A DNA stretch of 64,000 nucleotides from Ardenticatena maritima (GTDB taxonomy: Bacteria > Chloroflexota > Anaerolineae > Ardenticatenales > Ardenticatenaceae). The notes beneath the pieces were generated by a model, which was not told the origin of the DNA, made no database searches, and was given only the letters and a program-made list of their open reading frames with translations. Position numbers and translations under genes: made by a program. Where the stretch lies: NCBI RefSeq assembly GCF_001306175.1, contig NZ_LGKN01000005.1, forward strand, positions 620,001 to 684,000, written 5' to 3'. Below are positions 5,258-46,456 of this stretch, piece by piece (positions within the stretch are counted from its first letter, which is position 1; each line of letters opens with the position of its first letter).

Positions 5258-5294
5258 GCTCGCCCCCCTTTCCGCGAAGGTGGTACACGAGCAC

Positions 5295-5416
5295 GGTACA
5301 GGCGGAGTATCGGGCTTCACGCTCGCGGGCGTGTTACCGTTGCGGGACAGCGCCGGACTTTCACCGGTCTTCCTCCATTGTGCGCCGCGCATCCGGGCGA
5401 CTGGCGCACCTGTACC
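5295..5416 (-). promoter_or_regulatory. Cobalamin (AdoCbl) riboswitch
   Basis: The closing stem pairs GGTACAGG (5409-5416 on the plus map) with CCTGTACC (5295-5302). Between them, read on the minus strand, is the diagnostic B12 box region AGTCCGGCGCTGTCCCGCAA, preceded by GACCGGTGAAAG and followed by GTGAAGCCCGATACTCCGCC. These match the conserved core of class I cobalamin aptamers. The next gene is cbiB and the operon is cobalamin synthesis, so this is a feedback switch that acts in cis to turn the operon off when B12 is plentiful. A typical intrinsic terminator follows. Confidence 0.95.
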
Positions 5417-5447
5417 GGGCGGTGTGTGGTTGTCAAAGGTGAGGGGC

Positions 5448-33869: not shown

Positions 33870-33891
33870 GAGGGCGCCTCAAAGCGCCCTC
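33870..33891 (-). terminator. Intrinsic terminator of the 33.9-45.9 kb operon
   Basis: GAGGGCGC-6 bases-GCGCCCTC followed on the minus strand by TTTTCTTG, 22 bases past the stop of the 1602-codon gene. Confidence 0.85.
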
Positions 33892-33913: not shown

Positions 33914-36900
33914 TTATATGGCGGGTTGGCGCTCCACAATAATCCAATTGATGTCCCACGGGACGGATGCTTGCGCTGTCTGGCGAATGGTAATGAAGCG
34001 GGCGACTTCGGGTTGGGCGAACGCCAGACTGATGGGACCGGTGTTGTTCGGTTGCTCGGCGGCTTGTTTCCAATCTTTCCCGTTCGCCGAGAGGAGAATT
34101 TCAAAGCCGCGTGGGTGGTGCGGTTTATCGCCGTTGAAGATGTGCAGCGCATTGATGGCGAAGAGGTCGCCCAAATCGAGCATGAACCACATGCCGGGGG
34201 TTTGCGGCGCATTACTGCTCCACTGCGTCAGCCAGCGGTTATCTATCGCCAGAGGAGCGGCGTCGGGGTTGTGGCTGGCTTTGGCTTGCCAGGGGGCGGC
34301 TTCGCGCGTGCGAATCTCGCTGATGCGCCAGTGCCGCCCGTCGGGGGCGGCGGCGGTTTGTTCAATGCGAATAAACCGCACCTCAATCGGCGCGAATTGC
34401 ACAAAGAGGTCTTTCCAGTTCTGACGGCGTTCTTGAATGGTCAACCAGGTTTCGCCGTCGCGCGAGAGCCGCACGCGATACCCCAGCGGGAAGGTGTTTT
34501 CGTGGCTGAGCACTTCCACCGTGTCAATGCGCCGAATTTTCCCCATATCCACCTGGAACCACATTCCCGGCGTTTGTGGGGCTTCACTGCTCCAAAACGT
34601 TTTGGGGTTATGGTCAATCGCCAGGTGAGCGTCGTCGGGGTTGTGGCTGGCGCGCGCCGTCCAGGCGGGGGCTTCGCGGAGTTCGATTTCGCTGATGCGC
34701 CAGGTGGCGTCCCATGTGGGGCTGCCGGTTTGCTCGATACGGATGAAGCGCACCGGGCGCACGTCGAAGGGAACGTACACATCTTTCCAATTGAAAGAGC
34801 GTTCGCCAACGATTGCCCATGTTTGCCCGTCGGCGCTCACCTTGACGCGATACCCCGTGGGATACCCACGCCCCGGACTGAGGAAGGTGACCGCGTCGAG
34901 CAAGCGCGGTTCACCCAAATCCACCTCGAACCACATGCCCGGTGCTTGGCGTGCGCCGCTGTCCCAGAAGGTGGCGGGGTTGCCGTCCAGCACGAGGGGG
35001 GCGTCGTCGGGGTTGTGGCTGGCGCGTACCGTCCAGGTGGGGCGTGTGGTCGCTTCAATCGTCACCGGAACGCGCAGGGGGGTGCCGCCTTTCTCTTTGA
35101 ACCAGGCGACGCCTTCCTGCACGAGGTCCCATTCGAGCGTGTAGGTGCCGGGTTGCGGCGGTGTAGCGAGCGCCGCCCGCAAACTCACTTCGCCGCCGGG
35201 TGGAATCTCATCGGGGAGTGTGGTGCGCAGGTCTTTGATAGCGGGCACCGGGTTGCCCGCTTCATCATACCAGTGGTAGCCGATGTGGACCGGGTGTGCG
35301 CCGCGTGGGGGCCACGGCTGGCGGCCTGTGTTGCGCAGGCGCAAGCCCACCCGCGTTTCGACGCCGGCGGTCAGGCGAGAAGGCGTTTCGTGCGCGAGCC
35401 ATTCCACCGCCCAGTCGGGGCGCTGGCTTTCCTTGACGGTCAGGGGCACGATGAGCGGTTCGTTCCCTTTCTGGCTGAACCAGAAGCGCCCTTCGAGCAC
35501 CAGGTCCCAGCGCACGTGGTATCGCCCCGGTTCATCCGGCGCCTGGATGGTTGCCTGCACCGTGATACGATCGTCGGGGGCGACGGTGTGCGGGAGCGTG
35601 ATGCGGAAATTGTCCCACCAGCCGGCGACATGCCCGTCCTCGGCGAGCCAGTAGTGCGCGAGGTGTACCGCTTCTGCACCGTCGGCCTGCCAGGGGCGTT
35701 CGCCCGTGTTGCGCAGCGTCAGCGAGATGTCGGCGGTTTCGCCGGCTTCAAGATGCGTGGGGAGCGTGTGCGCTTCAAACACAACGCCCCACGGTGTCTT
35801 GGTGGATGCGGCGGGGAGCACTTGCACCGTGAGCAAGCCCGGCGGTTCGGGCTTTTTGGGGAACCAGGCGACGCCCTCTTTGACGAGATTGAGCGCGAGC
35901 AGATAAGTGCCCGGTTGCGGCGGTGCGCCGATTTCGATGTCGAGGGCGACGCTGTTGCCGGGCGGTACGTCGTTGGGCAACATGGCGCGGATGTCAGGCC
36001 AGCCATGCACGGGTTGCTTTTCGGTGGTGTACCAGTGGTAGCCGAGCCGCACCATGCCGCGCCCGTCGGGTGTGCGGGCGCGCCAGGTTTCGCTGCCGGT
36101 GTTTTGCACCACCACACGCCCGCGCACGGTTTGCCCCGCGCGCATTTGGCGCGGCAATTGCACATTGAGCCAGCGGTAATCGAGTTGTGGGCTGCTGGTG
36201 CTGACACCTTCAACGCGCACCGTGCGGTCGAGGGGTTGACCGCCCACTTCATGGAACCAGGCGATGCGCTCGGCGACCATATCGAGCCGCAGGGTGTACG
36301 CGCCGGGCGTGGCGGGGGCGCGCACGTCCATGGCAATGGTGGCGGTGCCGCCGGGGGGCACGTCGGACGGCAAGCGACCCCGTTCAGCCCCTTCTTGCAC
36401 CACACCATCGGCGGTGAGCCAGCGATACCCAAGATGCACGATGCCTTGCGGTGGCTCGCCGCCGGCGCGCCATGTGGCGCTGCCTGTGTTCTTCACGCTG
36501 ACGGTGATGCGTGCGCTCCCCTGGGTGGGAATGCTGGCGGGGAGCGTGGCGCTCACCCATTCCACGCGGAACGGCGGGGCGGGCGGCGGCTGAATGCGCA
36601 CGCTGACTGTGTGGGGGCGGCTGTCCACCTGACGGAACCAGGCAACCTGTTCGGCGACCATGTCAAGCCGCAAGGTGTAGGCGCCGGGGGTTTCAGGTGT
36701 GAGAATTTCGACGTTTTCGAGCGTGACTGTTTCGCCCGGTGCAACGTCGCGGGGGAGCACGCCGCGCGTTTTGCCTTCGATTTCGCGCCCGTCGGCGGTA
36801 ATCCAGTGGTAGCCCAGGTGCACCACGCCCTTGGCGGGCTCGCCGCCGGCGCGCCAGGTTGCCGTGCCCACATTGCGCACCGTCGCGGTGATGGGCACGC

Positions 36901-38722
36901 GCTGTCCCGGCTGCATTTCGCCGGGCACCGTGGCGCTCACCCATTCCACACGCAGGGGCGGGGCGGCGCTGGCGGGTTCAACCGTGATGGTGTAGTGCAG
37001 GTGGCGCGCGCCGTGTTGCGTCAGCCATTTTTTGTTGCCCTTGTCGTACAGGTCGTATCGCAACAGGTAGGTGCCGGGTGTGGCGGGGGCGGTCAGTGTG
37101 AGTTGGATAGTGGCTTGCTCCGATGGCGCAAAGTCATGCGGGAGTTGAAGGTACTGCGGTGTGCCCACAACCTGGAAGCCCGGCGTGAGCCAGCGTTGAA
37201 TCAGGATGATGGCGGTATCGCCTTTGGCAATCCAGGGACGCCGACCGCTGTTGATGAGTGTGCCCGTCACGCGCTTGCGTTCGCCCGGCTGCAAACGTGT
37301 GCCTGGGTTGAAGCCCTGCCAGGCGGCGCCCCATTCGGGCGGCAACGGTGGGCGGGGCACTTTTGTGCCAACCGCCTCGGCAATCGGGTAGAGATTGCCA
37401 TGTTCATCTGCCCAGGTGAAGCCGTCGCGCGCCCATTGGGGGTCGGGCGAGGTGGCGATAAACGCATGCGCCGAGCCGAGGTAGGGGTATTTTTGAATTT
37501 CGGTGAGCCACCAGACGTACTGCTGGGCAAACGCCTCATGCGAGACGGGCAACCCACTTTGTCCGTTGGAATTGCCGAACTCGGTGATTTCGATGAGTTT
37601 GTGCGGAAACTTGTTGTGGTACAACTTGAACCGCAAGCCCCAGAATTCTTGTTTGTAGGTGTCGGGCTGGTCGGGGGGCGTTTGCCAGTAGACGTGGCAC
37701 CCCAGCCAGTCGCTCATTTCGATGCTGTCGCGGCACCAGTCAAGCCATTCCAAATCGTTGTGCGGCACGGCAAGCCCCGGAAAGCCCAGCAACGCGAAGG
37801 GGTGGCGTGCTTTGAGAATGGCAAACACTTCTTGATACCACTGGTTGAATGCGATGGCGTCCTCGCGTGTTTGTCCCCAGCCTTCCAACCCGGTGAGATG
37901 GTTCGGCTCGTTGTGCACTTCAAACTTGGTGACGCCGAACTTCTCAAACAGGCGGTTGATGACGTCGCGGAATTCATCAGCGAATTGTTGGGGTGAAGGC
38001 ACATTGCCGCGCGGCATGTGCTTGTAGAGCCGCACGATGAATTCCATGTTGGGGTTGATTTCGCGGCAACGGCGATACACGTCTTCTTTGAGAAAACTGA
38101 GCGTTTTCAGCGATTCAATCCGCGCCCGACGGATGATTTCGTAGTCGGCGGGGGTGAAGTCGGTGTCGTTGCGGGCGTGAAGCCCAATGCGTGGACGGTT
38201 GCGCGTGAACGTCGGCGGGGCTTGTCCTTCGTACACGCGGTTGAGCAGGGCGTCCACGTCCAGCCCGGCGGGGTCGCTTTTGCGCCCGGCGGGGACGGCG
38301 ATGGCTTTGTGCGTGACGATGTTTTGGCGCGGAATGTTGTAGCGCGCCACGATGTCTTTCAGCAGGCGCACCAGGGCGTCAATCTGTGCGGGTGGGTAGG
38401 GGTCGTGCCCGGTGTTCGCGTTTTCGATTTCAATGCCAATCGAAAACCAGTTGACGCCTTCGCGGTTGTCCGGCGGCGGCATTTTCGATGCGCCGGCATG
38501 CCACGCCATGTCCTGCTCTTCGACGAGTTGGTAGAGTGTGCCATCCTTGCCCAGCAGGTAGTGCGCTGAAACGCCGCTGTTGGGGTTGGTCAGCCAGTTG
38601 AGAGACGGTTCCAGCGGGCCGGCTGTGGCGTGCAAGACAATGGTATCAATTTTGACGTTATTGCGCGGGTTTTTGTTGGGTGATGGTTTCCAGATTGCCC
38701 AGGCCACATCTGGTTGTGCCAT
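33914..38722 (-). CDS. Giant amidase/glycosidase-like protein with six Ig-type and three discoidin-type domains, no signal peptide
   Basis: 1602 residues. (a) About 20-165: Amidase_2/AmpD-like domain with zinc ligands H31 (VLHATAG), H138 (VTHKAI) and D150 (GRKSDPAG). (b) About 175-455: clan GH-A-like barrel with acid/base E272 (EVHNEPNH) and likely nucleophile E381 (EITEFGNSNG). (c) About 463-1235: six Ig-type repeats of about 125 residues with NTGxxxW and PGTYxLxxDLVxEGxxWF features, like NBR1/FW or CARDB sandwiches. (d) About 1235-1602: three F5/8-type C (discoidin) repeats, each with ASHNPDxAxL and PGMWFxxDLG. These parts suit wall or polysaccharide binding, but the N-terminus (MAQPDVAWAIWKPSPNKN) has no signal or anchor. 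It is the last gene of the operon, 44 bases after the 244-residue protein. AAGGGG precedes the ATG. Confidence 0.82.
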   Translation of the reverse strand: MAQPDVAWAIWKPSPNKNPRNNVKIDTIVLHATAGPLEPSLNWLTNPNSGVSAHYLLGKDGTLYQLVEEQDMAWHAGASKMPPPDNREGVNWFSIGIEIENANTGHDPYPPAQIDALVRLLKDIVARYNIPRQNIVTHKAIAVPAGRKSDPAGLDVDALLNRVYEGQAPPTFTRNRPRIGLHARNDTDFTPADYEIIRRARIESLKTLSFLKEDVYRRCREINPNMEFIVRLYKHMPRGNVPSPQQFADEFRDVINRLFEKFGVTKFEVHNEPNHLTGLEGWGQTREDAIAFNQWYQEVFAILKARHPFALLGFPGLAVPHNDLEWLDWCRDSIEMSDWLGCHVYWQTPPDQPDTYKQEFWGLRFKLYHNKFPHKLIEITEFGNSNGQSGLPVSHEAFAQQYVWWLTEIQKYPYLGSAHAFIATSPDPQWARDGFTWADEHGNLYPIAEAVGTKVPRPPLPPEWGAAWQGFNPGTRLQPGERKRVTGTLINSGRRPWIAKGDTAIILIQRWLTPGFQVVGTPQYLQLPHDFAPSEQATIQLTLTAPATPGTYLLRYDLYDKGNKKWLTQHGARHLHYTITVEPASAAPPLRVEWVSATVPGEMQPGQRVPITATVRNVGTATWRAGGEPAKGVVHLGYHWITADGREIEGKTRGVLPRDVAPGETVTLENVEILTPETPGAYTLRLDMVAEQVAWFRQVDSRPHTVSVRIQPPPAPPFRVEWVSATLPASIPTQGSARITVSVKNTGSATWRAGGEPPQGIVHLGYRWLTADGVVQEGAERGRLPSDVPPGGTATIAMDVRAPATPGAYTLRLDMVAERIAWFHEVGGQPLDRTVRVEGVSTSSPQLDYRWLNVQLPRQMRAGQTVRGRVVVQNTGSETWRARTPDGRGMVRLGYHWYTTEKQPVHGWPDIRAMLPNDVPPGNSVALDIEIGAPPQPGTYLLALNLVKEGVAWFPKKPEPPGLLTVQVLPAASTKTPWGVVFEAHTLPTHLEAGETADISLTLRNTGERPWQADGAEAVHLAHYWLAEDGHVAGWWDNFRITLPHTVAPDDRITVQATIQAPDEPGRYHVRWDLVLEGRFWFSQKGNEPLIVPLTVKESQRPDWAVEWLAHETPSRLTAGVETRVGLRLRNTGRQPWPPRGAHPVHIGYHWYDEAGNPVPAIKDLRTTLPDEIPPGGEVSLRAALATPPQPGTYTLEWDLVQEGVAWFKEKGGTPLRVPVTIEATTRPTWTVRASHNPDDAPLVLDGNPATFWDSGARQAPGMWFEVDLGEPRLLDAVTFLSPGRGYPTGYRVKVSADGQTWAIVGERSFNWKDVYVPFDVRPVRFIRIEQTGSPTWDATWRISEIELREAPAWTARASHNPDDAHLAIDHNPKTFWSSEAPQTPGMWFQVDMGKIRRIDTVEVLSHENTFPLGYRVRLSRDGETWLTIQERRQNWKDLFVQFAPIEVRFIRIEQTAAAPDGRHWRISEIRTREAAPWQAKASHNPDAAPLAIDNRWLTQWSSNAPQTPGMWFMLDLGDLFAINALHIFNGDKPHHPRGFEILLSANGKDWKQAAEQPNNTGPISLAFAQPEVARFITIRQTAQASVPWDINWIIVERQPAI

Positions 38723-38766
38723 TGGTTTCCCCTTCGCCGGTCTTGTGGTTGGTTGCGTACTGGTGT

Positions 38767-39501
38767 TTATGGTGCATGGACAAATTGTTCAAGCACGGTG
38801 CGAATGTCGCGCCAGGATGTGAGCGCCGCGCGCACAACGTCGCAGCCGGCTGCGCGCAAGCGGGCTTCGATGTCGCCGCTGACGGCGTGGGTGTCGCCCA
38901 GAATGAGCACCCGTTGCGCGGCGGCGGCTTCGTCGGGCGAAAAGCCGAAAACAACGTGCTTGGGTTGTGTGGCAAGCCATTCGTCCAGCAGGTGCAGCAC
39001 GGTGGCGGTGCGGCGGTCGTCTGGCGAGCCGAAAAGGACGTAGCGGGGCAAAGGGTGCGTTTGTGAGATGGCGGGTTGGCGGGTGCGTTGAAACACCACG
39101 TAAAAACTGTGGCGGAAGCGGTCGTTGCCGTCGCCTTCGCCGATGTGGTTGGTGTGAATGCTCACCACGCGGTCGCTTGGCAAGGGGGCGTCGGGCGGTT
39201 CGAGAACGTCCACGGTGTAGATGTTCCCGCGATAGAGCGGCATGTTGCCGCCGGGTTCGTCGGCGGGTTTTTCAATGCGGATTTCACCTTCCCCGCCTGC
39301 CCAGCGCACGCGCACCCGACTGCCCATGAGCCGTTTCCCCTGTTCGTCGCGCACGTCAACCCAGAGGTGGTTGCGCCCGCGGTTTTCTTGCGGGGTGAGG
39401 TGGTGCACATGCACGGCTTTCCAAAACCACTCGCCCGGCGCAACGTCTGCCGGTTCGATGCGCACGCCGAGGGGCTCGGCGTCGTTGTATCGCTCGCTCA
39501 C
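38767..39501 (-). CDS. Beta-sandwich plus small alpha/beta C-terminal module, unknown
   Basis: 244 residues. The first 140 look like a beta-sandwich (WFWKAVHVHHLTPQENRGRN, LWVDVRDEQGKRL). Residues 153-240 form an alpha/beta module (YVLFGSP, VVFGFSPDEAAAAQRVLILG, DTHAVSGDIEARLRAAGCDV). That module aligns with the C-terminus of the 962-residue neighbour and faintly resembles cell-wall-binding repeat 2. No signal peptide. It starts with GTG, which overlaps the neighbour's stop (GTGA), so it is translationally coupled to it. Function unknown; an accessory or targeting protein of the same system is the best guess. Confidence 0.6.
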   Translation of the reverse strand: MSERYNDAEPLGVRIEPADVAPGEWFWKAVHVHHLTPQENRGRNHLWVDVRDEQGKRLMGSRVRVRWAGGEGEIRIEKPADEPGGNMPLYRGNIYTVDVLEPPDAPLPSDRVVSIHTNHIGEGDGNDRFRHSFYVVFQRTRQPAISQTHPLPRYVLFGSPDDRRTATVLHLLDEWLATQPKHVVFGFSPDEAAAAQRVLILGDTHAVSGDIEARLRAAGCDVVRAALTSWRDIRTVLEQFVHAP

Positions 39502-42386
39502 AGCGTTTCCTCCAATGCCGCAACTCGCTCGGCAAGGGTCAGCATATCGTCGGCAATGGCGCGCGCCGCAATGGTCATGCCTTCCGTGGACGGCGGCGCG
39601 TGCGTGCCAATCACGACCACACGGCGCGCCAGCCGCGCCGCTTCGGCGTCGAAACCGAACGCCCAGCCATGACGCTGAATCAGCGGCAATGCAAGTGTGT
39701 ACACGTCGCCGGCTCTGGCGGCGTCCGCCAGCAGCCAGACGTAGGTGTCCAGCGCCTTGGTGGTGGTGGGCGGAACCGGAATGCGAATCTGCACCTCGTT
39801 GCGCCCGTCCAGCGTGAGCGGCTTGGTGAGGATGTTCAGGTCGGGAAGCGCAATGCGATACGCACCGGGGGGCAATTCTTCAAAAACAAAATGCCCTTGA
39901 GCGTCGCTCGCCGTCTCGGCAACGTTTACGCCGTCACGTTGCAGGATGAGCCGCACGGAGGGTGTGGGGGCGTTTTCCACCTGCCCGCGTATGCGTGAGA
40001 GGGCGGGTGGTGGCGCAGTCAACTCAACGTCGTGCACCTCAGGAGCCTGCTCATGGTCAATCCGAATGGGGGCGGAACGTTGCTCGATGGCAGGCACGAA
40101 AATGGTGTATTCGCCGTCAGCCAGTTCTTCAAAGAGAAAGTTGCCTTGGGGGTCGGTCATGGTTTCGGCGACAACGCGCCCCGCTTGTTCGAGAAGCACA
40201 GGGATAGGATGTGTGGCGACGTTGCGCACACGCCCGCTGATGCGCCCTGTGGGCAGGGTCGGCACGGTGAGGGTCGTCTCGGCGTCCCAGGGGGCGTCGC
40301 CGCCGATGGTAATTTCTTCCGAGCGCAGGTCGAACAGGGGCAGATGAACCGTGTAGCGCCCGGCGGGCAAGGCGTCAAAGGCGAATGCGCCGCTCTCATC
40401 GGTGTGGGTTTCGGCGATGACGTCGCTGTTGTCGCGCAGGAGAAGCACGCGCACCGGCGTGTGGGGCGCGCCCACCACGCGCCCGCGAATGTGCCCTTGT
40501 TCGACAATCGGTTCGACCAGTACTTCGCGCACGTGAATGTGGGCGGTGCTCACGCCGTCGAGGGTGAACACAATATCGCCGGGAATGTCTGCGATGTGCA
40601 AGCGATATGTCGCGGCGGGGAGATTTTCAATCACGGCGGCGTCGGGGTCAATGTCGGGTTTGTTGCCGACGGGTACGGTAATCAGCGCCCAGGGGGCTTC
40701 CAGCGAAACGCGCCGACCACGCAAGCCGGGCGTATGCACGATGATGCGGGAACGGCGCTCGGCTGTCGGCGCGCCGCTGGGGTTCTCGATGTCCAGTTGC
40801 CATTCCACCTGGGGAACCACCAACCGCACGCGGCGGCGTTCGCGCCCGTCCAGGGTGATGGGACCGGCGTGCACGTGCGGGTTTTGTTCCAGCACCAGCC
40901 GGTAGGTGCCCGCCCACAGGCGCTCGAAAGCGAAGGTGGCGGTGGTGATGCGCATGCGGCGTTCCACACGTTCAAAGCCTTCATCCTGGACAAAGAGCGT
41001 CAAATCGGCGATGGGCGGCGCGTTGACCAGTTCGCCCTCGATGGCGCTCAGACGCGGGGGCACAGTGAGCGGGGGCGGTGGGTCGCCGGGCACGGTCAGC
41101 GGCTCGGTCTGCACTCGCGTGCCGACAACTTCGGCGGTGTAGGTGCCATGCGCCACATGCTCAAAGTGGGCGCGTTCATCGGCGCCGATGACGGTTTCGC
41201 TCACATAGTCGCCGGAAGGACGGCGCAGCACGACAACTTGCCCTTCCCCATTGTGTACGGTGAGCGTCAGCGTATCCGTCGGCGTCGTCCGTGGGAGACG
41301 CACAGGCCAGGGGGCGCGTTCTTTCACGGCTTGCACGATGGGCAATTGTCCGTTGGGCCAGCGGGGCGAGTACCAGGCGCTTTCTTCCCAGTGCGGGTTG
41401 TTGTGGTGCATTTCGGCGTTCGCAATGAGCCAGGGGCAGTTGCAAAAATAGTAGTCGGGTGCGTCCGCCATGTGCGTGAAGCCAAACAAGTTGCAGGCGG
41501 TATGCAGGGTTTCATCCACGATGGGATAGCGCGGGTCCTGGGCGCGCCCCATGACCATGCCCCCTTCGGTGGTCAGAATGGGGACCTCGAAGCCAAAATA
41601 CTCAACAAAAATATCGCGGTAGATGCGGTATTTCAGAAATCCGTTGCTATCGCCGCGCAAGGTGCGCCCTGGCGCACGCCCACGCAGGCGGTGGCGGTTG
41701 ACTTCTTCGATTGCAATCGCAAAGCGATGTTGGGCGGCTTCTTCGGGTGAAACGGGCACGCCAAACTGGTTGACGGGGTCGTAGGGGTAGTCGTGCGGGT
41801 GGTTCAAAAAATAGTTGTGGACGGGAAGCCAGCCGCCCTGTTCAAACAGGTCGGCGCGCCCTTTTTCGGCGAGATAGCGCAAACTGCGATGCAAGAAATC
41901 AATGTCGTCCCAATGTCCGCCGGGGGTGAGCGCCGGATAGGCGGGCAAGCCTCCCAGTTCCAGCACGGTTTCGGCGTCGGCAATCCATGCTTCGGTGACA
42001 AGGATGGGCAGGTGTTCGCCGGCTTTTTGCCATTCGCCCGGTTGCCATTCTTCCACCAGGTTGGGCTCATTGTTGACTTCAAAATAGCGCACCCCAATCG
42101 CGATGAAGCGTTTGAGCCGATCGATGAGGTCTGCACTGAGCCGCCCTGGGTTGGGTTGGAAGCGATAGAGCCGCACAATGGGCATGATGTCGTGGGCGAG
42201 CAAGAGTTCGCACAGGTCTTCGGCGCCGTCGTGCAGCACTTTCACCCACTTGATGTTCATGGCTTGAAGTTCGGGAAGCCAGCGGGTGCGCACTTCTTGC
42301 AGAGGCACAGCCCCCGCTGGTCCAGCCGACCAGTGGATGCCCAAACCGGTATCGTTTTTGGGGCGCGGATAGTCAGCGAGTTGCAT
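39498..42386 (-). CDS. Clan GH-A glycosidase-like protein with carboxypeptidase-regulatory-type repeats, no signal peptide
   Basis: 962 residues. Residues 1-400 form a TIM-barrel glycosidase-like domain: strand pattern IKWVKVLHDG, IMPIVRLYRF, acid/base E107 in YFEVNNEPNLVEE and likely nucleophile E274 in PILTTEGGMVMG. Residues about 400-870 are a string of small beta-sandwiches, several with the carboxypeptidase-regulatory-like pattern (GRVVGAPHTPVRVLLLRD, DESGAFAFDALPAGRYTVHL, DAQGHFVFEELPPGAYRIAL). Residues 874-962 form the alpha/beta module shared with the next protein (AFGFDAEAARLARRVVVIGT). No signal peptide. It is 57 bases after the KOW-protein gene. The substrate is not readable; a surface polysaccharide is a reasonable guess. 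Confidence 0.75.
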   Translation of the reverse strand: MQLADYPRPKNDTGLGIHWSAGPAGAVPLQEVRTRWLPELQAMNIKWVKVLHDGAEDLCELLLAHDIMPIVRLYRFQPNPGRLSADLIDRLKRFIAIGVRYFEVNNEPNLVEEWQPGEWQKAGEHLPILVTEAWIADAETVLELGGLPAYPALTPGGHWDDIDFLHRSLRYLAEKGRADLFEQGGWLPVHNYFLNHPHDYPYDPVNQFGVPVSPEEAAQHRFAIAIEEVNRHRLRGRAPGRTLRGDSNGFLKYRIYRDIFVEYFGFEVPILTTEGGMVMGRAQDPRYPIVDETLHTACNLFGFTHMADAPDYYFCNCPWLIANAEMHHNNPHWEESAWYSPRWPNGQLPIVQAVKERAPWPVRLPRTTPTDTLTLTVHNGEGQVVVLRRPSGDYVSETVIGADERAHFEHVAHGTYTAEVVGTRVQTEPLTVPGDPPPPLTVPPRLSAIEGELVNAPPIADLTLFVQDEGFERVERRMRITTATFAFERLWAGTYRLVLEQNPHVHAGPITLDGRERRRVRLVVPQVEWQLDIENPSGAPTAERRSRIIVHTPGLRGRRVSLEAPWALITVPVGNKPDIDPDAAVIENLPAATYRLHIADIPGDIVFTLDGVSTAHIHVREVLVEPIVEQGHIRGRVVGAPHTPVRVLLLRDNSDVIAETHTDESGAFAFDALPAGRYTVHLPLFDLRSEEITIGGDAPWDAETTLTVPTLPTGRISGRVRNVATHPIPVLLEQAGRVVAETMTDPQGNFLFEELADGEYTIFVPAIEQRSAPIRIDHEQAPEVHDVELTAPPPALSRIRGQVENAPTPSVRLILQRDGVNVAETASDAQGHFVFEELPPGAYRIALPDLNILTKPLTLDGRNEVQIRIPVPPTTTKALDTYVWLLADAARAGDVYTLALPLIQRHGWAFGFDAEAARLARRVVVIGTHAPPSTEGMTIAARAIADDMLTLAERVAALEETL

Positions 42387-42443
42387 GCAGCACCTTCGCC
42401 GTGGCTGTTCTCAGGTTGAACAGCGTCAAGAGCGCTGACCGCC

Positions 42444-43556
42444 TCACTCGAGCGAGAGGGTACAGCCGGTCAAACGTTCCAGGTTGGTGTATGGGAAAAT
42501 CATTTCGGTGCCTTTCCCAAAAGAGATACGGCACCCTGGTAATTCCAAACCTGTTTCAGATGGCCCTTCGTCCACGTCCAGTTCCGTGATGACGCCGATA
42601 CGCCCCATCATGGGCGGCGTGAGCACGCGCACCACGTCGCCGACATTGAAGGGACGCCCGGGTTGAAGCGGGGTGGCTTCGCTGCGTGCGTCGGCGCGCA
42701 TGGAGGGGATAAAGATTTCGGGATATTTGCGTTCGGCGGGATTGGGCTCAGTGGCGTTGATGATGACTTCGTGCCCATCGTGGGCGTTGAAGATGTCGAA
42801 CGCCGGCTGCGCCATTGGCTCGCGATGGAAGCCGCCCAGCACCACGACGGAGTAGGGCATGCGGGTGGCGATTTCCAGCAAATCGGGGCGCAGGGTTTCC
42901 ACAATCAAGCCGCGGATGCCAACCTGGGCGGCGGTTTCAAAGAAGGCGGGTTCCACTGTGCGCCCGGCAACCACAATCATGCCGCGCAGGCCAATCCCCA
43001 AGCGGCTGGATGGCATGATTTCGTGGGGGCGTTTGACGCCCATGCGGAGCACGCCGATATTGGTGTGCCCGTTGCCCCACCAGCCTTGCACGAGAGCGCC
43101 AATGGCTTCGATCACCACGCCATAGCGCGGCAGCAAGCCGATGACGGTGCCGCGGTATCCAGCGCGCAGGTTTTCTTCTTCGCCGATGGTTTCCAGCAGA
43201 ATGCGCCCGTGGGGGTCAATGTGCAAGATGCGACCGCGCATAGGGGCGCGCACGCGCTTCCGCCGAATGACGCTTCCCGCTTCGGCGAGAATGTCGCCTT
43301 CTTCGACGAGTTGGTCGGGTTGCACACGCAGGGCTTTTTGGACGGCGGAGCGTTTTTTCAACCCCAGCAGTTCGCCAATGTCGAACATGTGCAGGATACG
43401 CCGTCCGGGCATTTGGGCGACGACGTCGTTGGCTTGCACGGTGCGCCCTTGTTGCACCAGGACGAGACCGGGGGCGCTGAGCAGGCGCTCGCGCTGGATG
43501 CGTACCAATGGTGCGACGATGAGTTCTTGGGGAGTAAAGCGTTCAGCTGCCCACAT
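42444..43556 (-). CDS. Barrel-sandwich/KOW-motif protein of the MutL cassette
   Basis: 370 residues. The N-terminal third holds lipoyl/HlyD-like barrel segments (VVAQMPGRRILHMFDIGELL, VRAPMRGRILHIDPHGRILL). The middle has a repeating GIGLRGMIVVAGRTVEPAFF and VVVLGGFHREPMAQ. The C-terminus ends with a KOW-like turn (FNVGDVVRVLTPPMMGRIGVI). ATG 43556 lies 14 bases inside the MutL-like gene and is chosen over an upstream in-frame codon at 43637. Chloroflexota genomes appear to pair such a protein with a MutL-like gene; its biochemical role is unknown. Confidence 0.7.
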   Translation of the reverse strand: MWAAERFTPQELIVAPLVRIQRERLLSAPGLVLVQQGRTVQANDVVAQMPGRRILHMFDIGELLGLKKRSAVQKALRVQPDQLVEEGDILAEAGSVIRRKRVRAPMRGRILHIDPHGRILLETIGEEENLRAGYRGTVIGLLPRYGVVIEAIGALVQGWWGNGHTNIGVLRMGVKRPHEIMPSSRLGIGLRGMIVVAGRTVEPAFFETAAQVGIRGLIVETLRPDLLEIATRMPYSVVVLGGFHREPMAQPAFDIFNAHDGHEVIINATEPNPAERKYPEIFIPSMRADARSEATPLQPGRPFNVGDVVRVLTPPMMGRIGVITELDVDEGPSETGLELPGCRISFGKGTEMIFPYTNLERLTGCTLSLE

Positions 43557-45300
43557 AGAGCATCCAATCCTGAACCAGTTTGCGTTGGGTGACGAGTGTT
43601 TCTGTTTGTGGAAGCGGACGCCCACGCGCGTCCACAATCAAGCCGACGGCGCCGCCGTGAATGGTGATGGTGCGTTTGCGCCCGCTGCCTTCGCCAATGT
43701 CAATGCCGCGCGCCGGTTTGAGTTCCAGCGAGAAGTGTGTGCCGGGGGGCACGTATTCGCGGTAGAGCTGCCCCGCTTCGACTTCGACGGTGTACGAACC
43801 GCCGCCGGGCATGGGCATGGTAAATTCAAGCACGGGTTTGCCGGGGCTCATTTCGCCAAAGGGCACGATGAGTGTGCCCAGCGATTCAAACATGTCAAAC
43901 CGGAGCAGGTCGGCGATGAGGGTTTGTTCTTCTTCGGCAAGGTAGCCGACCAGCGGCAACAATCCCAGCCGCTCGCGCATGAGGCGCACGACGCCCACGG
44001 GCTGGACAGCGTCCACCAGAATCATGGCGGCTTGTGCTGGGCGCGGCGCCATTTGAATGGCGGGACCCGACCCGATGAGGAAGGTGGGGTTGGGGAAGCC
44101 GGTTTCGTGGCGGTAGGTGGCTGGGAGCGCCCGTATGGTTTTGTTGAGCAAGACCCGCGCGGCGGCGTGTTCCAGCCAGAGCAAATCTTCGATGGTGGGG
44201 CGAATGTGTGGGCGCAGGCTGCGTTGCCAGAGGAGGGCGAGCAGGTCGCGCTCCGGCGTCATGCCTGGGGTCCACCGCAGGACTTGTTCCAGGGTTTCGT
44301 CTTGTTGCAGCAGTTTGGCCATGCTATAGCCCGTGCCCCAATCCACATCAACAAACGAGCGGTATGAGAGTTCGTCGGCGGCGATGACTTGCGTGGCTTC
44401 GGAGCCAATGTGGGCGTAGAGAATTGAGCCAGGCGTTTGGCGGCTGAGTTGGCGAATGCTCAGCGTGCGCATGGCAAGGGCTGAGCGGATGGTGAAGTTC
44501 GACCAGCTCTGAATAGCGCCAAAGCCGGGCAAGCGGGCGATGCGTGTTTCCTGATAGTAGGTTTCCAGCAATTCGAGTGTTTCTTCGGCGACGGCGTATT
44601 CGTCGGGCTGGTCTTCCAACAACACCGCTTCAAGGGTGCTGTTTTTGTGCAACAGGGGGTAGAGCGTGTCTTGAACGGCTTTTGTGCCAATGACAATGAC
44701 CAGCGCCCGGTCGCGTGGTTCGAGCATGTCTTGCAAGAGGGCGATGCTTTGCCCAAGTTCTTCCAGGCTGGGCGGAATCTCTTGCAGGGATGCCGCACTG
44801 ACGAGGATGACATCGGGCGGGGTTTGGCTGAGTGTTGCGATGGCGTTGAGCAAATCGCCTCCCCACGAGAGCGTTTTGGGCGCGGCAACAAGTCGAAATG
44901 TGACGCGGGTGGGGAGACTGCCGGCGGCAACCATGGCAATGGGCAGGTCAATCTCTTCGTCAAACGCGAAGATGGCGACGTTCATGGGTTTCACCAGGCT
45001 GACGGTGGCGAGGAACATGTCCACGCCTTGCCCTTCCGCGTTTTCGGGTGTAATGACCGCCAGGCTGCTGCCAACGCCTTGCGCCAGAATATGCCGCCCG
45101 GTGGTTTCTTCAATTTCGCGCACTGCGAAGTTCAAGCCATTGATCAGATTGGGAGAAGGGGGCGCAATTGTTGTGGCGGCAATCCCATTGGCGACAAAAC
45201 GGTAATGCCCCGCCACCTGGTCAATGAGTGCGGCGACCGTGCGCAGGTTGTCAATATCGGCATACAAGAGCGATTCGAGGATGCGTGCGTAGGTGTTCAT
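43543..45300 (-). CDS. Glutamate-mutase MutL-like ASKHA-fold protein
   Basis: 585 residues resembling the MutL family found beside clostridial glutamate mutase, an actin/Hsp70-like (ASKHA) ATPase fold: AVITPENAEGQGVDMFLATV, FVDVDWGTGYSMAKLL and ILVDAVQPVGVVRLMRERLG. No B12 mutase subunits (GlmE/GlmS) are present, so a mutase-reactivation role is unlikely here. The setting between a tail-anchored acidic protein and a barrel/KOW protein suggests a separate, perhaps envelope-related, function. The C-terminal 130 residues are beta-rich (MPMPGGGSYTVEVEAGQLY, RTITIHGGAVGLIVDARGRP). It starts 6 bases after the upstream gene. Confidence 0.72.
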   Translation of the reverse strand: MNTYARILESLLYADIDNLRTVAALIDQVAGHYRFVANGIAATTIAPPSPNLINGLNFAVREIEETTGRHILAQGVGSSLAVITPENAEGQGVDMFLATVSLVKPMNVAIFAFDEEIDLPIAMVAAGSLPTRVTFRLVAAPKTLSWGGDLLNAIATLSQTPPDVILVSAASLQEIPPSLEELGQSIALLQDMLEPRDRALVIVIGTKAVQDTLYPLLHKNSTLEAVLLEDQPDEYAVAEETLELLETYYQETRIARLPGFGAIQSWSNFTIRSALAMRTLSIRQLSRQTPGSILYAHIGSEATQVIAADELSYRSFVDVDWGTGYSMAKLLQQDETLEQVLRWTPGMTPERDLLALLWQRSLRPHIRPTIEDLLWLEHAAARVLLNKTIRALPATYRHETGFPNPTFLIGSGPAIQMAPRPAQAAMILVDAVQPVGVVRLMRERLGLLPLVGYLAEEEQTLIADLLRFDMFESLGTLIVPFGEMSPGKPVLEFTMPMPGGGSYTVEVEAGQLYREYVPPGTHFSLELKPARGIDIGEGSGRKRTITIHGGAVGLIVDARGRPLPQTETLVTQRKLVQDWMLYVGS

Positions 45301-45306
45301 AGTGTT

Positions 45307-45870
45307 TTACAGAACAAATCCGTTGATGATGAGAATGACGAGCAACAGGATCGCCAGCAACAAGAGGATAAGGCGCAATGTGCGCTGGGCGCGGGTTGGT
45401 TCTTTGGGCGGCGGCATGCGTCGCCGTGGGCGTGAGGTGCGCCGCGCCGGTTCTTGTCTCACAAGTGCTTGTTGCGCGCTGTCCGCCATATCGAGTGAAA
45501 GGGGAACTGTTTCCGATGGTTCGGCGAGTGTGCTGGATGGGAACGGCGGCACTTTGTGCGGCAGGACGATAATCGGTTCGATCGGGATGGGGTTGGGAAC
45601 GCCCGCCAGCAAGCCGCTTCCTTCGACGATTTCCGCGGGGTCTTGTGGTTTGCGCGTAATGAAGACGCTTTCGCTGCTACCAACTGCCGGGACTTGTTCG
45701 GCTTCCTCTTCTTCGACAAGCCATTCCGGGAGTTCGCTAAAATCAATATCATCCGTCCAGGCGGCTTGTGCAGCCTCGCTTTGCTCCTTGGCAAGGTCGC
45801 GCAGCCAATCGGGCAAGTTTGCCATTTCATCATCAGATGGTATTCCGCCGCGCTTTTTTTCATCACTCAT
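45307..45870 (-). CDS. Tail-anchored acidic protein with DWL motifs
   Basis: 187 residues: an acidic N-terminal half with NLPDWLRDLAKEQ and FSELPEWLVEEEEAE, a Pro-rich linker, a basic stretch (RRTSRPRRRMPPPKEPTRAQ) and one C-terminal transmembrane helix (LRLILLLLAILLLVILIING), so it is a tail-anchored membrane protein facing the cytoplasm. The DWL motif matches segments in the TPR protein at 21584-24145, suggesting a common partner. ATG 45870 (GGGGAG upstream) is preferred; the frame is open to 46008 but the extra part overlaps the promoter. First gene of the operon. Confidence 0.7.
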   Translation of the reverse strand: MSDEKKRGGIPSDDEMANLPDWLRDLAKEQSEAAQAAWTDDIDFSELPEWLVEEEEAEQVPAVGSSESVFITRKPQDPAEIVEGSGLLAGVPNPIPIEPIIVLPHKVPPFPSSTLAEPSETVPLSLDMADSAQQALVRQEPARRTSRPRRRMPPPKEPTRAQRTLRLILLLLAILLLVILIINGFVL

Positions 45871-45919: not shown

Positions 45920-45949
45920 AGTATAACACCAGATGCTTGTGGGGAGCAA
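45920..45949 (-). promoter_or_regulatory. Promoter of the MutL/GH operon
   Basis: Minus strand TTGCTC (45944-45949), 18-base spacer, TATACT (45920-45925), about 50 bases before the ATG at 45870. Confidence 0.5.
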
Positions 45950-45999: not shown

Positions 46000-46027
46000 T
46001 TGACACAACGCTTCAACAGACTACAAT
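46000..46027 (+). promoter_or_regulatory. Promoter of SRP RNA
   Basis: Perfect TTGACA (46000-46005), 16-base spacer, TACAAT (46022-46027), placing the start near 46033, the first base of the folded RNA. Confidence 0.85.
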
Positions 46028-46032
46028 ACAGC

Positions 46033-46306
46033 GGTGGTCGTGCTAAGCGGGGGGGTGGCGGTCCCCTGAACCCGAAATCCGCCAAAGCGGGGCTGAAATC
46101 CCCCCTTGAGGCTGCAAGTGGCCGGAACTGCCGCAGTCAGCGGTGTTGAGGGCTGGGTCCTGAGCGGCGAGAGCCCGTGAACGGGTCAGGCCCGGAAGGG
46201 AGCAGCCATAAGCGGTCACTCTCGGGTGCCTCAGGGGAGCCTGGCCTGAGCCGTCTGACTGTGTGTAAGCCGGTGCGCTGCAGTCGAGAGGGGGGTGCAC
46301 GACCAC
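46033..46306 (+). ncRNA. ffs: Signal recognition particle RNA, large bacterial type
   Basis: The conserved SRP helix 8 core GTCAGGCCCGGAAGGGAGCA is at 46187-46206, with the GGAA tetraloop region and the asymmetric-loop AGCAGCC. The 5' end (GGTGGTCGTGC) pairs with the 3' end (GCACGACCAC), closing a rod of about 274 nucleotides, the Bacillus-like form with an Alu domain. The RNA binds Ffh and targets nascent membrane proteins. A run of seven T residues follows at 46307-46313 as terminator. Confidence 0.95.
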
Positions 46307-46456
46307 TTTTTTTATGCCTGCGCGCGGCTGTTTTCTTCGCTGGTGTTGCGTTTTTCTCCATTTGCCAATCTTTCTCGCTCTCGCATATACTCCCCCTGGT
46401 TGCGGGCGCAACCAGCCGCTGTGGGGTAGGGGCGGCGCAACATGCGAGGTGGTTGT

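Follow-up and report, generated by a model that had tools for sequence, protein, structure and literature searches.

The described systems closest to the locus studied here are the MutL/GlmL proteins, accessory proteins of B12-dependent mutases; the PilM/FtsA-type membrane-recruited proteins; the hydrolases of clan GH-A, of which NEP and TE residues are typical; and the phage endolysins, phage-type lysins lacking signal peptides. We compared these with a six-gene unit in a 64,000-nt stretch of Ardenticatena maritima DNA (GCF_001306175.1, contig NZ_LGKN01000005.1, positions 620,001 to 684,000 of the forward strand), hereafter the window. Six co-directional ORFs, termed g1 to g6 and grouped below as module A (g1 to g3) and module B (g4 to g6), run from 45870 to 33914 on the minus strand between one promoter and one terminator, with the following features:

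46038..46302, plus strand: large SRP RNA gene (RF01854), divergent neighbor and upstream boundary of the operon
45920..45949, minus strand: promoter (TTGCTC, 18-nt spacer, TATACT; extended −10 TGn)
45307..45870, minus strand: g1, 187 aa, acidic LPDWL-motif protein with one C-terminal TM segment
43543..45300, minus strand: g2, 585 aa, MutL/GlmL-type ASKHA protein with an extra C-terminal beta domain
42444..43556, minus strand: g3, 370 aa, barrel-sandwich, alpha/beta, and KOW (NusG/Spt5-like) domains; the longest ORF reaches 43637
42387..42443, minus strand: g3–g4 junction between the modules, 57 bp, diverged in the sister genome G001
39498..42386, minus strand: g4, 962 aa, leaderless; glycosidase-like domain (clan GH-A-like NEP/TEGG) at residues 1 to 372, then CarboxypepD_reg repeats
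38767..39501, minus strand: g5, 244 aa, leaderless; homologues of g4 have a C-terminal domain matching residues ~146 to 240
33914..38722, minus strand: g6, 1602 aa, leaderless; Amidase_2, glycosidase-like, five NBR1-type Ig, and three F5/8 type C domains
33870..33891, minus strand: intrinsic terminator (9-bp stem and T tract)

A first-pass annotation had described one tightly spaced transcription unit with a single promoter, a single terminator, and two overlaps, and comparison with the one other congeneric genome in the set, G001, bears this out. Gaps of 6 bp (g1/g2), 57 bp (g3/g4), and 44 bp (g5/g6) separate the genes; the overlaps are those of g4/g5 (4 bp) and of g2/g3, the latter measuring 14 bp if ATG 43556 is taken as the g3 start, which G001 keeps. 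The promoter was missed by a consensus scan, its −35 element being too weak, and was read from the sequence; about 40 nt around the site are almost identical in G001, where the extended −10 is TGTTATACT. The terminator (33891 to 33870) is the top match of the terminator scan, and its stem has undergone compensatory changes, from GAGGGCGC/GCGCCCTC in the window to GGGGGCGC/GCGCCCCC in G001. The spacer between g3 and g4, singled out earlier as the place where a second promoter would separate the two halves, shows no promoter in either the window or G001, and no terminator was found in it. Purifying selection acts on each of the six genes (dN/dS of 0.05 to 0.11), most strongly on g2 (0.048). The operon is flanked by the SRP RNA gene and comEA on one side and by a Na+/H+ antiporter gene on the other; the SRP RNA gene has a strong promoter-like site of its own at 46000 to 46027 on the plus strand and is followed by comEA at 46442. 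Elsewhere in the window, a cobalamin riboswitch (RF00174) lies at 5284 to 5428 on the minus strand.

The g2 sequence of the window matches no Pfam model at E ≤ 0.1 and no NCBIfam model, and a PF13941 search of its own genome gives only a weak match elsewhere in that genome; 35 of 36 aligned members of its family, by comparison, match PF13941 MutL (best E of 3e-131) and the GlmL models (NF040745, NF040744, and TIGR01319). The AF2 model of g2 (pLDDT of 88.5) has ASKHA proteins as its top Foldseek matches (E of 4e-9) and resembles acetone carboxylase beta subunits, FtsA, Hsp70, and diol dehydratase reactivase; because g2 and g3 both give low TM-scores, probably an effect of domain arrangement, we claim the fold class only. 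The initial description of g2 as a MutL-like actin-fold protein thus stands, with the window copy itself below Pfam detection. What sets the g2 family apart from MutL/GlmL is an extra C-terminal beta domain bearing GGxVGLIIDARGRPL, the mark of this subfamily, and an operon of membrane proteins in place of mutase genes. The window copy differs further in its nucleotide motifs, as the DxG loops of phosphate-1 and phosphate-2 are not intact (DID and HIG): phosphate-1 reads DIDN, with Asp in place of Gly17 (Gly in 35/35 relatives), and phosphate-2 reads HIGSEAT, with His in place of Asp297 (Asp in 31/35). Since these motifs are degenerate and dN/dS is low, the data suggest a functional protein whose use of ATP is weakened or lost, with the proviso that ASKHA proteins with variant loops can still bind nucleotide. 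Having an ASKHA fold and membrane proteins encoded in its operon, the g2 family recalls the PilM/FtsA-type proteins by analogy only, as it is not a sequence member of that group and no PilN/O or FtsZ partners were seen.

The neighboring g3 was initially called a barrel/KOW protein, and both elements are found. Its model (pLDDT of 91.2) has a barrel-sandwich at the N terminus, an alpha/beta domain in the middle, and a KOW domain at the C terminus, and profile and fold searches return piecemeal matches to NusG/Spt5, NqrA, glycine cleavage H protein, and related folds. It therefore combines the fold kinds of NusG/Spt5 KOW proteins and of NqrA/RnfC barrel-sandwich domains, but its domain order and central domain are unlike those of any of them, and by membership it is not a transcription factor.

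Neighbor clustering of 27 loci from class relatives yields a recurrent gene order, C7, DUF6754, C6, C2, C3, MutL-like, barrel/KOW, whose last two adjacent genes are present in the window. C7 is a small protein, DUF6754 corresponds to PF20539, C6 and C3 are polytopic membrane proteins, and C2 is a larger membrane protein with a double zinc ribbon, LPDWL repeats, a TM segment, an external domain, and a second TM segment; the C2 to C7 HMMs, built by iteration, may drift, most of all that of the short C7, and gene calls outside the window come from a simple longest-ORF caller. Earlier annotated as a tail-anchored acidic protein, g1 does end in its one hydrophobic segment (KD of 3.26 at residue 168) and has 30 D+E versus 19 K+R. 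It aligns to the middle of C2, sharing a GLLAGVxxPIPxEPII segment and the first TM segment, and then stops, so that the LPDWL/PIPxEPII region and one TM segment are kept and the zinc ribbon and external domain are missing. On this alignment g1 is a truncated orthologue of C2, the zinc-ribbon/LPDWL membrane protein of the ancestral operon. DUF6754 is absent from the A. maritima genome, from G001, and from the family members G002, G004, and G005; it is retained in the family member G003, where it lies at the edge of a contig. Judged from gene order and homology, g1-g2-g3 is evidently a reduced form of a broadly conserved membrane operon.

Full or partial forms of this operon also occur outside Chloroflexota and are common within it, the g3 family being found in 177 of 301 sampled Chloroflexota genomes (about 60%). 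A search of a species-representative genome collection returned at least 542 relatives of g2, and the 80 best loci come from Chloroflexota, Bacillota, Armatimonadota, Poribacteria, TA06, and anammox Planctomycetota. The Bacillota loci (Symbiobacterium and Peptococcaceae) mostly display C7-G2-G3, the anammox Planctomycetota Scalindua and Brocadiaceae have C7-G2-G3-C5-C6-C2-C3 together, and in several Armatimonadota loci G2 alone was recognized. Searches of the openly licensed literature for the DUF6754-MutL-KOW operon, DUF6754, MutL in Chloroflexi, and GlmL reactivation turned up no relevant paper. By eye, a large secreted beta-propeller-like protein precedes the MutL-KOW operon in Brocadiaceae/Scalindua (L187, 5503 to 9627, and L185), as does a SpoIVB-like protein in L187. 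In the Bacillota locus L163, ORFs resembling alanine racemase, an EndoA-like toxin-antitoxin pair, cysteine desulfhydrase, and peptidase C26 were likewise noticed by eye before C7-MutL-KOW, and ORFs similar in length and order stand in the same place in L153 and L155.

The proteins of module B begin directly at their domains, with no signal peptide apparent as judged by hydropathy and by eye rather than by a dedicated predictor; domain matches and hydropathy agree with the earlier reading of g4 to g6 as leaderless proteins with glycosidase-like, amidase, Ig-type, and discoidin domains. Paralogues of the g4 domain encoded in the same genome include one with a signal peptide (L196:8688-10424), one with a lipoprotein-type leader (L198:5864-7189), and one that is leaderless (L197:6126-7529); because two of these are of exported type, g4 does differ from them in lacking a leader. 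In the glycosidase-like domains, NEP and TE(G/F)G motifs resembling those of clan GH-A are conserved and would be the acid/base-like and nucleophile-like elements, respectively. N106-E107-P108 and T273-E274 are invariant or nearly so among homologues of the g4 N-terminal domain, and a related domain at residues ~165 to 475 of g6 (profile similarity to g4 with a probability of 80% and E of 1.4e-5) has NEP at 271 and ITEFG at 379. The likeness to clan GH-A extends to sequence motifs only, and the g4 domain differs from the clan in having no Pfam or PDB match, even in profile searches; it likely represents an undescribed, putative glycoside hydrolase family. In g6, residues 23 to 152 match Amidase_2 (E of 3e-37), and this amidase matches phage lysis families (PHROG endolysin) as well as host AmpD-type amidases.

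The g4 domain is also found in five viral contigs of IMG/VR, which are computational predictions. It follows a Sipho_Gp37/minor tail gene in two (L204 and L207), precedes an Amidase_2 gene in L206, and is fused to Amidase_2 in L207 and L208; the viral contigs (L204 to L208) possibly encode a new bipartite type of endolysin. Viral matches to the g4 domain are confined to IMG/VR, with none among GenBank phages, and a search of viral contigs with g6 returned no match. Recent phage origin of the whole locus was rejected, given that no phage genes lie nearby and that the g4 domain is unmatched in GenBank phages. The endolysin-type amidase match of g6, the leaderless starts of all three proteins, and the company that the g4 domain keeps with siphophage tail genes and Amidase_2 liken module B to phage endolysins. 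Ancestry from, or relationship to, phage lysins would explain both the domain pairing and the missing leaders of g4 to g6, and as relatives of phage lysis enzymes these proteins would have a simpler explanation for their lack of signal peptides, although relatedness to phage lysins does not prove a present role in the cell. They differ from endolysins in being chromosomal and much larger, in carrying NBR1-Ig, discoidin, and CarboxypepD_reg modules, and in that no holin was seen adjoining the operon.

In an alternative reading, g4 to g6 are not lysins now but ordinary extracellular enzymes of wall remodeling or adhesion (e.g., in filament separation) that leave the cell by an unknown leaderless route. 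With five Ig and three discoidin domains, g6 has a richness in such modules that lysins seldom show and that is commoner among surface proteins; the gene neighbors of homologues look chromosomal rather than prophage-derived, and purifying selection has been long term. Against it stand the phage-contig context of the g4 domain and the endolysin-type match of the g6 amidase, and we regard this alternative as unlikely, though one to be taken seriously.

How modules A and B relate to each other was examined in 41 genomes (A. maritima and 40 relatives, many of them fragmented MAGs) by association tests that ignore phylogeny. Within module A the linkage is tight: g2 is present in 27 of 41 genomes and g3 in 26 of these 27 (Fisher p = 4e-10), the two being adjacent in nearly all genomes that have both. 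Between the modules, no positive association was detected across the 41 genomes, as g4 (cut-off of E < 1e-60) occurs in 18, and only nine have both g4 and g3, which is below chance expectation (odds ratio of 0.35, p = 0.19). The two halves are joined only in the two congeneric genomes, A. maritima (G000) and G001; in other genomes with both, they lie on different contigs. The family members G002, G004, and G005 have the g2-g3 pair without the downstream enzymes, with g1 detected in G004 and G005, and in G004 the g4 and g6 homologues adjoin each other on another contig (L104). The usual partner of g4 is g5, and these two form a pair of their own elsewhere (L101, L103, and L107). Given the lack of positive association and the separate loci elsewhere, the operon joins, at the level of the genus, two modules that evolve separately in other lineages. 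In L104 and in L105 (from G006), g4 homologues are divergent from sensor-kinase-like genes (by eye in L104), and a response-regulator-like gene is also present in L105; these neighbors suggest regulated expression.

The same survey bears on the proposal, made in the first-pass annotation, that g1 to g3 serve as a non-Sec device for the export, assembly, or regulation of the leaderless g4 to g6. In its favor are the single transcription unit conserved in two genomes, strong selection on every gene, and the fact that the leaderless starts are real. The co-occurrence check suggested there speaks against a functional link: module A and g4 are not positively associated and sit on different contigs elsewhere, leaderless g4 homologues exist in four genomes without g3 (G020, G024, G029, and G034), and module A is conserved in other phyla, where no such enzymes were seen adjoining it. 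We consider this proposal improbable, with the caveat that, only two genomes having the joined operon, co-transcription could reflect a real functional link within the genus. Still less probable is that g4 to g6 are cargo of a contractile injection system, an apparatus that the same annotation had named as a possible route of release to be tested. A sheath-containing cluster does exist at about 579 to 585 kb of G000:C3 (L199), with two sheath proteins and tube/baseplate-like ORFs, and may be phage-tail-like or a contractile-injection cluster; it lies on another contig, and sheath presence does not track g4 across the 41 genomes (9/18 versus 8/23, p = 0.36), so that a role as injection cargo was rejected. 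Finally, there is very little chance that g2 serves a B12-dependent aminomutase as its GlmL-type reactivating chaperone, a role that the MutL/GlmL matches of its relatives might imply, because the glutamate mutase E subunit (PF06368) is absent from its genome and has one match above cut-off in the 41 genomes, its constant neighbors are membrane proteins with no mutase noticed among them, and its nucleotide motifs are degenerate.

The reading that we favor, with a probability of roughly 0.55, is a genus-specific joining in which module A would be a cut-down membrane complex with a likely non-hydrolyzing g2 scaffold and module B a host-encoded, phage-lysin-type set of wall-degrading enzymes. Membrane-anchored, acidic g1 would recruit the actin-fold g2, together with the barrel/KOW adaptor g3, to the membrane's inner face. 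Where the operon is complete, the ASKHA protein may act through an ATP-dependent cycle on partners that are polytopic and exposed on the outside; since the Ardenticatena lineage has lost these partners along with key nucleotide-binding residues of g2, its g2 is most likely a non-hydrolyzing scaffold. For module B, glycosidase-like and amidase activities would reside on proteins rich in binding domains; made without signal peptides, these proteins would get to the wall once the cell lyses or its membrane is permeabilized and not via Sec.

For the families concerned, these findings would place MutL/GlmL, known only as a mutase accessory family, in a fixed membrane-protein setting across phyla, and would make of this lineage a natural experiment in which membrane partners and nucleotide motifs have been shed and the core three proteins are still under strong selection. 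The enzyme half defines a glycosidase-like domain outside Pfam that is common to siphophages and Chloroflexota chromosomes, and the relationship to lysins would give a plain reason why large wall enzymes lack signal peptides. More tentatively, there may exist an undescribed, multi-phylum, ATP-driven envelope machine composed of ASKHA, KOW, and DUF6754 proteins with two to three further membrane proteins, a stripped version of which is coupled here to leaderless lysin-like enzymes.
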